This document shows, piece after piece, positions 1-14,223 of a stretch of 14,223 nucleotides of DNA. The DNA is from a bacterium (lineage in GTDB: Bacteria; Hydrogenedentota; Hydrogenedentia; Hydrogenedentiales; SLHB01). The position numbers and the translations under genes are program-made. The notes below the pieces were generated by a model, which ran no database searches, was not told the DNA's origin, and was given only the letters and a program-made list of their open reading frames with translations. The stretch spans positions 1-14,223 of the forward strand of contig JAAEQP010000093.1 of NCBI GenBank assembly GCA_024231375.1, written 5' to 3'. The number at the start of each line of letters is the position of its first letter. Positions within the stretch are counted from its first letter, which is position 1.

Positions 1-1761
1 GGGGTAATAACCGCCATCGGAACTGTTGTAGTTGACCTCCTGATAATCCGACAGGCCGTCCCCATCGCTGTCGTAGTCATCCGGATCGGTCCCATAGCTG
101 TTTTCATCGCGGCTGGAGAGGCCGTCCCCGTCCCAGTCGCCGTCGAGGTCATCGGAGGCGGAGAGGGGGTCCGTCCCATCCGAGACCTCCTGGGCGTCGT
201 TCGTGCCGCCGGCGTCCGTGTCGGCCAGCGTGGGATCGGTGCCGTGGGCGTTCTCCTGGGGCAGCGTCAGCCCGTCGCTGTCGTAGTCGCTGTTCCGTAT
301 GCCCGACCACATCTGGGAGTTGATCCCCGGATCGTCGTAGTCGTCCTCGCTCCCCAGCCTCCAGATGGCGACCCCCCCCGCCTTCCTCGACATCGCCTCG
401 TCGATCTTGGAGCCGATGAGCTTCTTGATCTCGTTGAGGCGCTTGCGCGAGGTCGCTTCACACCGCATCACGAGGACGGGCGACGTGTTGGACGCGCGAA
501 GCAGGCCCCAGCCGTCCGAAAACTCAATGCGCGCGCCGTCGATGGTGTTGACGTTCAAGCCCTCTTCCTGGAAGAAACGCGTGGCCTCCTCGACGATGGC
601 GAATTTCCGGGCTTCCTTGGTCTCGATCCGCATTTCGGGCGTGGAGAACATCTCGGGCACGTTGTTGAATCGCGCGCTCAACGTCTTCCGACCGTGCGAC
701 ATGAGTTCAAGCAGTCGCGCGCCGGCGTAGATGGCGTCGTCGAACCCATACCAACGGTGCTTGAAGAACATGTGCCCGCTCATTTCGCCGGCGACCTGGG
801 CTTTGAACTCCTTCATGGCGGCCTTGATGAGCGAATGGCCGGTGCGCCACATAATGGGCTTGCCGCCGTGCTTGGCCACGTCGTCGAACAGCGTCCGCGA
901 CCCCTTCACCTCGGAGATGATGGTCGCGCCAGGCTTCTCCTTCAGGATCGCGCGGGCGAACAGGATGAGTAACCGGTCGCCCCAGATGATGCCGCCCTTC
1001 TCGTCAACGACCCCGATACGGTCCACATCGCCGTCGTAGGCAATACCGCAGTCGGCCTTTTCTTTCTTCACGGTGGCGATCAGCTTCTTCAGGTTCTCGG
1101 GCACGGTCGGGTCGGGATGATGATTCGGGAAGGTGCCGTCCACGTCGCAGTACAGCGGGATGACCTCGCACCCGAGCTGTTCGTACAACGGCACGGCCAC
1201 GGGCCCGCCGGGACCGTTTCCGCCGTCGACCACGACCTTCAACTTGCGCTTGAGCGACACGCCCCGCAGGATGCGCTTGGTGTACTTGGGCACCAGGTCC
1301 ATACGGGTGACCGTGACGGGCTTCTTGTGGGGGTTGCCTTCGGGGATTTCGCCCTTCTCGACCGCCAGCTTGTACAGCTTCTGGATCTCGGCCCCGTGAA
1401 TGGTGGAATTGCCCGCAGCCACCTTCAACCCATTGTATTCTTTCGGGTTGTGGCTCGCCGTGATCATGACGCCACCGTCCACGTCCAAGGTGAACAGGCC
1501 GAAATACAGCACCGGCGTCGGCACCATGCCAATGTCGATGACGTTCATGCCGGTCGAGGTCACCCCGTCGATGAAGGCGTTCGAATACGGTTTCGACGTG
1601 AGCCGGCCGTCGCGTCCGATGACGATCTGGTTGTGCTTGCGCTTGCGGCGCATGTACAGGCCATAGGCCCGACCGATGCGCGCCATCACATCTTCGTCGA
1701 GTTGCTTGCCCGCGAGACCGCGGATGTCATATTCGCGAAAGATCCCCGGATTGATCTTCAT
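1..1761 (-). CDS. Phosphomannomutase/phosphoglucomutase fused in frame to thrombospondin type 3-like calcium repeats (C-terminus off window)
   Basis: The first 460 or so residues are a full alpha-D-phosphohexomutase, which interconverts mannose (or glucose) 6- and 1-phosphate in the cytoplasm to supply nucleotide sugars. All four family signatures are visible: the phosphoserine loop TASHNP (101-106, Ser103), the metal loop DGDVDR (243-248), the sugar loop GEMSGH (325-330) and the phosphate loop RASNT (422-426). The domain should end near residue 462, but no stop follows. The frame runs on through an acidic linker into Asp/Gly repeats: GTDP spacers, DGDWDGDGLSSRDE (540-553) and DSDGDGLSDYQEV (564-576). 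These resemble thrombospondin type 3 or EF-hand-like calcium loops of secreted proteins. At least 587 residues are visible, against about 450-465 for the family. The start is ATG with an AGGAGGAGGA ribosome site six bases upstream. No signal peptide is present, so the calcium repeats are out of place. Enzyme identity is near certain; the fusion could be real, a lost stop, or an assembly chimera. Confidence 0.93.
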   Translation of the reverse strand, partial: MKINPGIFREYDIRGLAGKQLDEDVMARIGRAYGLYMRRKRKHNQIVIGRDGRLTSKPYSNAFIDGVTSTGMNVIDIGMVPTPVLYFGLFTLDVDGGVMITASHNPKEYNGLKVAAGNSTIHGAEIQKLYKLAVEKGEIPEGNPHKKPVTVTRMDLVPKYTKRILRGVSLKRKLKVVVDGGNGPGGPVAVPLYEQLGCEVIPLYCDVDGTFPNHHPDPTVPENLKKLIATVKKEKADCGIAYDGDVDRIGVVDEKGGIIWGDRLLILFARAILKEKPGATIISEVKGSRTLFDDVAKHGGKPIMWRTGHSLIKAAMKEFKAQVAGEMSGHMFFKHRWYGFDDAIYAGARLLELMSHGRKTLSARFNNVPEMFSTPEMRIETKEARKFAIVEEATRFFQEEGLNVNTIDGARIEFSDGWGLLRASNTSPVLVMRCEATSRKRLNEIKKLIGSKIDEAMSRKAGGVAIWRLGSEDDYDDPGINSQMWSGIRNSDYDSDGLTLPQENAHGTDPTLADTDAGGTNDAQEVSDGTDPLSASDDLDGDWDGDGLSSRDENSYGTDPDDYDSDGDGLSDYQEVNYNSSDGGYYP

Positions 1762-2011: not shown

Positions 2012-2812
2012 CTACGCATCCCCCCGACGCAGACGCCCCAAACACACGACACCCGCAACCATCAGAAGCACCATCGTCGCTCCCGGAACCCCATCCACCC
2101 CCAACGTCGCCGGTGCCACCGGCACGACCGCCACGTACTCGCCCACATACGGACCCGTCGTCATGGGGACGAACGAAGTGACCAGGGACGGCGAAGCCGT
2201 GGGCTCCGTGCTGTAGAATATGTTCGTCTCGTTCATGCCGCCGTTGTCGTTTATGCGACAGTCGTCCAGCCAAAGTCCGTACATTGTGGTTCCTGGCGTC
2301 AGGAACGGGTCGTCGTCCGATCGGGTTCCCGTCACGACCACCCAATTGTCCCAATCGCCCCCGAGAGGAATCATGGCCGGCGCATTCACCGGATTCGGCG
2401 ACACATCCGGGATGTTCCGGTTGAGCCAGTATCCGATTTGGCCCACGAACGCCGTGAAATCGCTTCCATGGATCACCTCGTACAGGTAGTCGGGATCCGG
2501 CACGTAGTTGTCCATGGTCCCCACGAGCATGTCGGCATCGAGTTCGAGGGCCGGCGTGAATGTGGGATCCAAAGAACGCCCGTAGTTCAGGATCTCGAGC
2601 AGCGTTTCGTCGCTACTACCAAGGAACCGCAGACACATCTGCGACGAGATCGCCGCGGAACTGTGCATCATCGGGTGCTGGTCATCCAGGTTGATGTGGT
2701 TGACGTCCAGATCCAGGATGTCCAGGGCCCCGGCCACCGGCCCAATCACACACGCGACAATCGCCAACAACACAACACGGCTCGCACCGCTCCCCCAAGA
2801 CTTCCTGCACAT
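2012..2812 (-). CDS. Secreted protein with degenerate C39-like body and PEP-CTERM-like C-terminal anchor
   Basis: A 266-residue protein. Residues 1-29 are a signal peptide (basic start, hydrophobic 13-24, likely cleavage after VAGA). The far C-terminus (about 241-266) has the layout of a PEP-CTERM-type sorting signal: a short motif VPGATM, a hydrophobic helix and an Arg cluster (RLRR), though the motif reads VPG rather than PEP. The body looks like a C39-like papain-fold peptidase: a helix HSSAAISSQMCLRFLG (50-65) where such enzymes have CGPTAAAM, then NWVVVTG (156-162) where they have HWVVVTG, followed by a strand ending in LDD. Both the catalytic Cys and His would be missing, so it would be inactive; that assignment is tentative. 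The chosen start is the second Met of the longer frame because a strong ribosome site precedes it and the signal peptide begins there. It is divergent from the sialidase-like gene. The function is unknown. Confidence 0.8.
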   Translation of the reverse strand: MCRKSWGSGASRVVLLAIVACVIGPVAGALDILDLDVNHINLDDQHPMMHSSAAISSQMCLRFLGSSDETLLEILNYGRSLDPTFTPALELDADMLVGTMDNYVPDPDYLYEVIHGSDFTAFVGQIGYWLNRNIPDVSPNPVNAPAMIPLGGDWDNWVVVTGTRSDDDPFLTPGTTMYGLWLDDCRINDNGGMNETNIFYSTEPTASPSLVTSFVPMTTGPYVGEYVAVVPVAPATLGVDGVPGATMVLLMVAGVVCLGRLRRGDA

Positions 2813-2816
2813 GACT

Positions 2817-2828
2817 CCCCCTCCCCTT
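2817..2828 (-). promoter_or_regulatory. Ribosome binding site deciding the start at 2812
   Basis: On the minus strand AAGGGGAGGGGG ends four bases before the ATG at 2810-2812. The alternative upstream ATG at 2869 would place 19 non-hydrophobic residues ahead of the signal peptide, so the internal start is preferred. Confidence 0.65.
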
Positions 2829-2890
2829 GCACGCTGTGTGGCCGCCCCCGCATGCCACAATGAACACACTATCTACGTAAGACCTCCGCG

Positions 2891-2976: not shown

Positions 2977-4281
2977 GTGAACACACAGACGACGCCTCGC
3001 GCACTGCTACTTGCGGTGACCATCGGGACGCTCGCCATCGCCGTGACAGATACATCCGCCGCCCAAACGGACCCGTCCCCCATCGTCGAGGTGGAACGCC
3101 AGCTCTACGTCGAGCACACCGAGACCGGCAAGAGCCGGTGGGTCAACGCCTACTACACGGGTTCCGGCCTCGAACGCGAAGAGATCCACACCTTCATGGC
3201 CAAGAGCGACACGCCCGAGAACCCCAAGCGCCGCCGCTCACCCGACAACGGCCGCACGTGGTCAGGGTTTGAGGAGATGTCTGCCGTCGTCAGTCATGAA
3301 CAAGGCGCTCGCATCTACTGGGGCGCCGGTCCCATGCATTACGACGACGAAACCGGCGTGACCGTATCCATCTGGCTGCGTCAGACGAAACTGAAGCTCT
3401 ACCACAACCATAGCTTCTCGCGCGTATCGAGCGACGGCGGCCGGACCTGGTCCGAGCCCAACCAGTTGCGCTACGAAGACGGCGCCTCCTTCGACCCGGC
3501 CAATCCCCTCAATCCCGACTACCTCGACCACAACCAATCCTACTTCGGAAGCAACATCATCCGCCACAGCAACGGCTCCCTGATCCATGCCGGCGCCGCG
3601 GTGAACGTGCCCTACGTCAACGAAACGGGCAAGAGCTACGACGGCCGCGTCCCCGCCGACGCCAAGAGCATCGGGTCCGTGTGCTACATCGGACAATGGA
3701 ATGCCAAAGCGAAGGACTACGACTGGGTGGGCGGCAATCCCGTTTGGGTGCCTCTCGAAGTGTCGTCCCGCGGGTTGATGGAACCGGAGGTGACCGAGTT
3801 GGCCGACGGCCGCGTCCTGGTCGTGTGGCGCGGGTCCAACACGCCCACCACGCCCGGCCGCAAATGGTTCAGTCTCTCCGAAGACGGCGGCCGCACCCTG
3901 AGTCCTGTCAAAGAATGGACCTACACCGACGGGACCCGGTTCTACTCACCCTCCAGCCTCCACCGGTTCCTGCGCCACAGCGTCACCGGCAAACTCTACT
4001 GGCTCGGCAACATCTGCGATACCCCGCCCAACGGAAACGGCCCGCGCTACCCTCTCATCATCGCGGAAGTCGACGAGTCATCCGCCTTGCTCAAGTACGA
4101 CACGGTGACCATCATCGACAAGAAGAGCCCAAGCGACAGCGACGCCCTCCAGCTATCCAATTTCTACATTCTCGAAGACCGCGAGACCCATCGCGTCGAA
4201 GTGTACGTCAGCCGCCTCGGAGAAGACCCCGACGACTTCTGGGGCGCCAACGCGTACCGATACGTCCTCACCTTCCCGTAG
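2977..4281 (+). CDS. Secreted sialidase-superfamily (BNR/Asp-box) protein
   Basis: A 434-residue exported protein predicted to be a six-bladed beta-propeller that binds or cleaves glycans outside the cytoplasm. Residues 1-29 are a signal peptide (hydrophobic 9-23, cleavage near TSAA). Three Asp boxes are visible: SPDNGRTW (88-95), SSDGGRTW (151-158) and the weaker SEDGGRTL (301-308). GLMEPEVTELADGRVLVVWR (266-285) matches the sialidase segment that carries the catalytic Glu and one of the Arg triad. The N-terminal FRIP motif of classical sialidases is absent, so true neuraminidase activity is uncertain; another exo-glycosidase or a glycan lyase of this fold is possible. The start is GTG with AGGGGAA six bases upstream. 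Its stop lies 10 bases from the stop of the convergent histidine kinase gene, leaving no room for a terminator between them. Confidence 0.88.
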   Translation: MNTQTTPRALLLAVTIGTLAIAVTDTSAAQTDPSPIVEVERQLYVEHTETGKSRWVNAYYTGSGLEREEIHTFMAKSDTPENPKRRRSPDNGRTWSGFEEMSAVVSHEQGARIYWGAGPMHYDDETGVTVSIWLRQTKLKLYHNHSFSRVSSDGGRTWSEPNQLRYEDGASFDPANPLNPDYLDHNQSYFGSNIIRHSNGSLIHAGAAVNVPYVNETGKSYDGRVPADAKSIGSVCYIGQWNAKAKDYDWVGGNPVWVPLEVSSRGLMEPEVTELADGRVLVVWRGSNTPTTPGRKWFSLSEDGGRTLSPVKEWTYTDGTRFYSPSSLHRFLRHSVTGKLYWLGNICDTPPNGNGPRYPLIIAEVDESSALLKYDTVTIIDKKSPSDSDALQLSNFYILEDRETHRVEVYVSRLGEDPDDFWGANAYRYVLTFP

Positions 4282-11381: not shown

Positions 11382-11444
11382 GCAAAACGGGGACAGACAC
11401 GTCTCGCTCGAAGACTCGCTCGCTTGAGTCAGTCCCCGTTTTGC
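11382..11444. repeat. REP-like inverted repeat between two genes
   Basis: GCAAAACGGGGAC (11382-11394) pairs exactly with GTCCCCGTTTTGC (11432-11444). The 37 bases between hold a near-direct repeat (GTCTCGCTCG at 11401 and GACTCGCTCG at 11413). The layout, and the GGGGACAGACAC start, resemble the palindromic units mobilised by REP-associated tyrosine transposases in environmental bacteria, recalled from general knowledge. It follows the DUF5107 gene by 45 bases, so it could also end that transcript; TTTT at 11439-11442 lies within the distal arm. Confidence 0.65.
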
Positions 11445-13231: not shown

Positions 13232-14223
13232 TTACAGTTCGAACTGGGGAATCTTCAGCAGTTCGCCATCGTTCATGGCCGACTGGTGCGCCACGATTCC
13301 GGGAACGGTCATGTTCAGCGCCGATACGATGTCGACCAGCGGCTGACGGTCCTGAAGGATGGCGCTGACGAACTCCTCGCACAAGTAGCCGTGGGAACCA
13401 CCATGTCCGCCGGGCTTCACGTTCGGCGGCAACGGAGGTTTGGCAAGTGTCACCTTCGAGATGTCTACCAGGCCCTCGTAGTGCGTGCCTGTCATCGATC
13501 CTTTCTGACCACGCACGCGTCCCACCTCGCCGTGGGAACCGGGGATGTCCCTGCTCTCGGCGATGCGCGCCATACCACCCTCGCTCGTGCGGTGCAGGGC
13601 GATCTCGGTGCCAAATGGATTCTTGTAGGCGTTGCTGTCGGCGCCGAAGCGCGACACCGTACTGGGCATGCCCATGCATGACACCTCGGTGAAGGTCTGG
13701 CCGGTTACGCACATGTAGTAGGCGTTGGAATGGGTGGGATACCATTGAGGCGGACAACCCATGCGCCAGCCCTTGTAGGAATCGATACCCTTCTCCGAGT
13801 AGTGGAAATACTCGCCCTCCGTGTACACCATCTTGCCGAACCCGCCCGCCTTGTAGACTTGGCGCATAGCGTAGCAATCGTTGCGATACGAAGACGTCTC
13901 AAACATCATGTACTTCAAGCCCGACTTCTTCACGGCGTCAAACAGACGGTCGGCATCCTCCAACGATCCGAAGACCGCGGGCACGGCACTCGCCACGTGC
14001 TTGCCGTGCTCCAACACATCGATGCAGTGCCGAGCGTGGCTCGGGGCATCCGTCGCTACGAAAACCGCTTCAATGCCGTCGTCCTTCACCAATTCCTCCA
14101 AGGAGGGATAGGTCTTGCTGCAACGGCACACATCCGCCAAGGCCTTGCATCGGTCAGGAAACAGATCGCTGACAGCAACCACTTCGATGTTCGGATGGTC
14201 CTGAAGACTGAAGGCCGCCCCAA
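13232..14223 (-). CDS. Gfo/Idh/MocA-family oxidoreductase (N-terminus off window)
   Basis: The visible 329 residues cover most of a two-domain NAD(P)-dependent sugar oxidoreductase. The first bases encode GAAFSLQDHPNIEVVAVSDL, the end of the first Rossmann helix and the second strand; the nucleotide-binding Gly motif and any export signal lie beyond the right edge. EAVFVATDAPSHARHCIDVL and GKHVASAVPAVFG follow as in the family. In the last, the usual EKP, whose Lys helps catalysis, reads AVP. The C-terminal substrate domain contains EGEYFHYSE, YPTHSNAYYM and GGSHGYLCEEF. Members oxidise or reduce sugars, inositols or sugar acids, or act as NAD-recycling glycosidases; the substrate cannot be assigned. 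The TAA at 13232 faces the stop of the GH84-like gene 22 bases away. Family assignment is secure. Confidence 0.92.
   Translation of the reverse strand, partial: GAAFSLQDHPNIEVVAVSDLFPDRCKALADVCRCSKTYPSLEELVKDDGIEAVFVATDAPSHARHCIDVLEHGKHVASAVPAVFGSLEDADRLFDAVKKSGLKYMMFETSSYRNDCYAMRQVYKAGGFGKMVYTEGEYFHYSEKGIDSYKGWRMGCPPQWYPTHSNAYYMCVTGQTFTEVSCMGMPSTVSRFGADSNAYKNPFGTEIALHRTSEGGMARIAESRDIPGSHGEVGRVRGQKGSMTGTHYEGLVDISKVTLAKPPLPPNVKPGGHGGSHGYLCEEFVSAILQDRQPLVDIVSALNMTVPGIVAHQSAMNDGELLKIPQFEL

Follow-up and report, generated by a model that had tools for sequence, protein, structure and literature searches.

The DNA analyzed here (the window, 14,223 nucleotides in all) begins on its minus strand with a reading frame of 587 amino acids (1761..1) that is free of stops down to base 1, which is assumed to be the end of the contig. 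The preliminary description had reported a phosphomannomutase whose frame passes its normal end without a stop, and this is what the frame contains. From its start towards the edge of the window, it is made up of the following parts:

397..1761, minus strand: phosphomannomutase/phosphoglucomutase (PMM), residues 1-455, identified by its Pfam domains, by 81% identity to its nearest relative and by a predicted C-terminal helix (439-458)
376..399, minus strand: junction zone, residues 455-462 (EAMSRKAG), where a cumulative score switches from PMM-like to GH18-like
295..378, minus strand: residues 462-489, what remains of a GH18 domain, comprising the last strand GGVAIWRLGSED and the final helix, recognized by the match to protein P0127 from its residue 754 on
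1..294, minus strand: bacterial TSP3 repeats (DxDGDG / GTDP; PF18884), residues 490-587, running on without a stop to the window edge

All four PGM_PMM domains (PF02878, PF02879, PF02880, and PF00408) score above their cut-offs in the window PMM, in agreement with the four signatures noticed earlier, and the TASHNP, DGDxDR, GEMSGH, and RASNT loops, which serve the catalytic serine, the metal, the sugar, and the phosphate, respectively, are all present. In an alignment of 23 sequences, the invariant columns include T101, S103, H104, N105, and P106 (A102 is nearly invariant), D243, G244, D245, D247, and R248, as well as G325-H330 (M327 included) and R422-T426. The nearest relative, a PgmG/AlgC-type PMM from a Candidatus Hydrogenedentes bacterium (P0001), is 81% identical and shares the four domains and the catalytic loops; a second relative (P0002) is 80% identical (best 120 of 8000 homologues scored), and a gene in the Hydrogenedentota genome G051 is 81% identical over residues 1-458. 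The score against the NCBIfam PgmG equivalog NF046027 is 535.6 bits (cut-off 600), and, judged by its sequence, the protein is a member of the PMM/PGM family that is not assigned to the PgmG equivalog. No signal peptide is evident by eye at its start, as had been stated before. The predicted model of the window protein (mean pLDDT 74) places the last PMM helix at residues 439-458, such that the window PMM lacks just its customary final few residues and stop and is otherwise a four-domain enzyme. PMM homologues are 452-461 aa long (best 120 of 8000 scored), and the PgmG/AlgC-type gene stops at 454-461 aa in all 31 of the Hydrogenedentota loci checked; in contrast, the window frame has no stop around residues 455-460 and extends for another ~130 residues to the edge.

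The repeats at the end of the frame, which begin at approximately residue 490-491 (base ~291-294), match TSP3_bac (PF18884) with an E-value of 4.9e-12 and 45.9 bits against a cut-off of 25, and could presumably bind calcium. The preliminary description had the PMM running directly into such calcium-binding repeats; the repeats are there, but a GH18 strand and helix (residues ~462-489) intervene. A search with residues 456-587 retrieved 245 proteins with E-values no higher than 0.001, and a PMM Pfam domain is found in none of the best 120 of these. The top six by E-value (best 120 of 245) carry TSP3 and have no GH18 domain, and the seventh, P0127, is the only one of the matches listed (again the best 120 of 245) that matches 100% of the tail. 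P0127 is a protein of 943 aa with a GH18 domain (PF00704, Pfam 521-762) and TSP3, and it is 72% identical to the tail across 132 aligned positions (E 2e-63 against 359 proteins), including the last GH18 strand, in a match that starts at its residue 741-748 and reaches residue 871. Residues 456-490, which lie mostly ahead of the repeats, match 77 of the 120 GH18-set proteins at E<0.01, compared with 0/120 PMM and 0/119 other TSP3 proteins.

The GH18 family motif GGIAIWRLGxED is located at the end of the domain (found in 83 of 120 proteins), and in the predicted model of P0127 (mean pLDDT 59, pTM 0.47, with most of the GH18 part near 90) it forms the last strand, at 755-759, after which comes a helix at 767-774; it is to this strand and helix that the remnant in the window equates. 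The motif sits where P0127 aligns with its best solved relatives by sequence, the YaaH-type GH18 cortical-lytic enzymes of PDB entries 4s3k and 4s3j. The match to these structures spans most of the GH18 domain of P0127, whereas the window has just the last strand and helix; the GH18 barrel with its DxDxE catalytic motif is absent, and nothing in the tail corresponds to region 568-575 of P0127 (DGIDIDYE). P0127 also possesses a hydrophobic N-terminus (a signal peptide by eye) and an N-terminal region that the window lacks along with most of the GH18 domain. The tail therefore consists of the last GH18 strand and helix without the rest of the domain, followed by TSP3 repeats. The first 460 residues of P0127 resemble another glycosidase by eye and are without a Pfam match (E 0.001). 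Over the last 400 bases the tail frame contains no stop, and one frame on the opposite strand is stop-free there too; openness alone is therefore weak proof and homology decides the coding status, which the match to P0127 supports. A structure prediction for the linker, as had been proposed, gives the tail a pLDDT below 50 from a model that had no tail homologues and hence says little there, while the PMM helix at 439-458 is normal.

The position of the join was determined by scoring residues 440-475 of the window against the ends of PMM proteins (116 of 120) and GH18 proteins (82 of 120). The running sum of PMM minus GH18 scores is highest at residue 455 and declines steadily from residue 462 onward, with mixed values at 456-461, and the join lies 376-399 bases from the window edge, close to base 375, near which the PMM had been said to end. 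Both parent families have a predicted helix at this point (at 439-458 in the model of the window protein; at 738-750, ahead of the last strand, in that of P0127). The stretch IGSKIDEAMSRKAGG in the window corresponds to IGHKLDAAMTRQVGG in P0127, and the PMM and GH18 families have in common same-register preferences for isoleucine at 449 and, strongly, for lysine at 452. A short microhomology at the join is possible. The break falls inside the GH18 domain, ahead of its last strand, and not at a domain boundary.

A run of eight C at window positions 372-379 (G on the coding strand) also lies at the join. Runs of eight G are typical sites of error, and a base error could have erased the PMM stop such that a neighboring gene is accidentally read in the same frame. 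This is the least probable of the explanations weighed, and hardly credible, since P0127 and other GH18 relatives align without gaps and in the same frame through the run, and since the tail starts inside a GH18 domain whose front part is missing, for which a stop change or a frameshift alone is insufficient. Stop loss or frameshift at the eight-G run was rejected on the strength of these in-frame alignments.

The join itself is seen in none of the relatives examined. The preliminary description had proposed looking for the same junction in related genomes; it is absent from all 31 Hydrogenedentota loci, where the PMM ends as described above, and the PMM-TSP3 architecture occurs neither among the best 120 of 8000 PMM homologues nor among the best 120 of 245 tail homologues. 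Additionally, a literature search pairing 'phosphomannomutase' with 'thrombospondin type 3' returned no paper with both. Among other Hydrogenedentota genomes, the match in G018 reaches residue 479 and contains two internal stops. These data bear on the unusual fusion enzyme that had been suggested, in which an evolved PMM would be anchored or stabilized by calcium-binding TSP3 repeats. The single open frame, the complete PMM domains, the normal final helix predicted for the PMM part, and a TSP3 domain that could bind calcium are all compatible with such an enzyme. However, a broken GH18 domain, reduced to one strand and one helix, forms the start of its tail, its architecture is missing among the relatives examined, and no export signal is visible by eye at the start of the frame for what would be a putative secreted, calcium-binding part. 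The low pLDDT of the tail also counts against it, though for the reason given above it says little. An evolved fusion is consequently very improbable, and the same small weight is given to a lineage-specific form of it, a working PMM that captured its calcium-binding tail from the end of a secreted GH18 gene and became a tethered or moonlighting mutase. If real, the protein would be a rare case in which a central enzyme has captured a secreted repeat.

The composition of the tail does not set it apart from the rest of the window. In codon usage, the tail (z 1.38) falls within the values spanned by the window's genes taken together, with 254 of 305 same-length gene windows scoring as low or lower; all 33 windows from the PMM score above it (1.54-3.43), and GC3 is 0.868 in the tail versus 0.866 in the PMM. 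A tail of foreign composition was thus rejected, codon usage and GC3 both being inside the spread of the window's genes, and a cross-species chimera is unsupported. Because codon usage carries no foreign sign, a join made within the cell has to be weighed: a deletion or rearrangement that really took place in the sampled cells, perhaps via microhomology, may have fused the 3' end of the PMM gene with the 3' portion of a GH18-TSP3 gene; the PMM would probably still work, extended by an accidental tail, and the GH18 gene would be broken. This possibility, the main rival, is unlikely, though much less so than an evolved fusion. The joined parts share one frame and one strand, the composition is compatible with the window's genes, some register-matched similarity exists at the join, and deletions at microhomologies are known in bacteria, as described in PMC3411829.

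Two surveys of relatives argue against a deletion. In the first, 8 of the 120 GH18-set proteins and the window's own proteins were used as queries against the surroundings of the PMM gene in 30 of the 31 loci (L082 omitted), and no GH18 or TSP3 match was found in the DNA covering 0.6-11.5 kb downstream; gene order in common with the window was limited to weak histidine-kinase matches (24-31% identity). In the second, a closer donor was sought with P0127 in 68 Hydrogenedentota genomes with up to 12 scored candidates each (E 0.001), in 392 genomes from the phylum of L047 and 387 from that of L060 (L047 and L060 being titled Planctomycetes and Kiritimatiellae; E 1e-15, up to 2 scored candidates each among the matches listed), in 4 single genomes, and in IMG/VR. 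GH18 and TSP3 together near 72% were found in none of the matches listed. The 68 Hydrogenedentota genomes yielded no P0127-like GH18 (best GH18 match 29%) and TSP3-only pieces of up to 58%; among the matches listed elsewhere, TSP3-only pieces reached 53% (phylum of L060) and the best GH18-only match 45% (phylum of L047).

The most likely explanation, with a probability of roughly two in three, is a chimeric contig end. The genuine contig would be Hydrogenedentota DNA with an ordinary PMM/PGM gene, and the last 376-399 bases would derive from the interior of another gene, a GH18-TSP3 gene of the P0127 kind, attached via a chimeric read or a false overlap. The two parent families, the break inside the GH18 domain, and the lack of the join in the relatives examined are shown by the data; an origin of the join in the library or the assembly and not in a cell is inferred. 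The break in the middle of a domain, the fact that no examined relative has the join, and the position near the edge together favor a chimeric contig end. The preliminary description had offered a deletion and an assembly chimera side by side; both fit, and the chimera is held to be likelier because the join lies <400 bases from the edge and no GH18-TSP3 gene is found near the PMM in the DNA covered for 30 relatives. The helix shared by the two families and the few register-matched residues suggest that the join may rest on a short stretch of DNA common to both genes, which would account for its being in frame. The in-frame, same-strand join and the codon usage of the tail were counted against a chimera, and the odds assigned to all four explanations are a matter of judgement.

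According to PMC3901335, every assembly of simulated viral gut metagenomes was affected by chimeric contigs, which it calls ubiquitous, and PMC8674242 describes chimeric reads born from microhomology during library preparation. In the Salmonella data of PMC3411829, 12 of 15 tested deletions were verified, an 8 bp microhomology cut-off was deduced for true deletions, and longer microhomology was read as a sign against ligation chimeras. A possible microhomology at the join would accordingly also fit a real deletion, and this too was counted against a chimera. If the join is a splice, it serves only as a warning, since gene callers would place a false PMM-TSP3 fusion in protein databases, and the break in the middle of the GH18 domain is the telltale sign.

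Elsewhere in the window, a BNR-like gene (2977-4281) shares 71% identity with one from G051, and an oxidoreductase (13232-14182) is 82% and 81% identical to genes in G067 and G065, respectively, in searches within Hydrogenedentota only; by sequence identity, these matches and that of the PMM are consistent with a Hydrogenedentota contig. The gap between the PMM and the next gene contains a palindrome (1843-1891) with 23-nt arms that are 96% complementary and a 3-base loop, for which a 20-bp RNA stem is predicted (-47.8 kcal/mol, z -10.6); a search run without a positive control found no copies of it in 68 Hydrogenedentota genomes. A 17-nt inverted repeat at 11382-11444 (GCAAAACGGGGACAGAC / GTCAGTCCCCGTTTTGC, 94% complementary) resembles REP-type elements. 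The protein encoded at 2012-2869 (minus strand) has no Pfam match at E 0.001 and ends in VPGATMVLLMVAGVVCLGRLRRGDA, which resembles a PEP-CTERM sorting tail.
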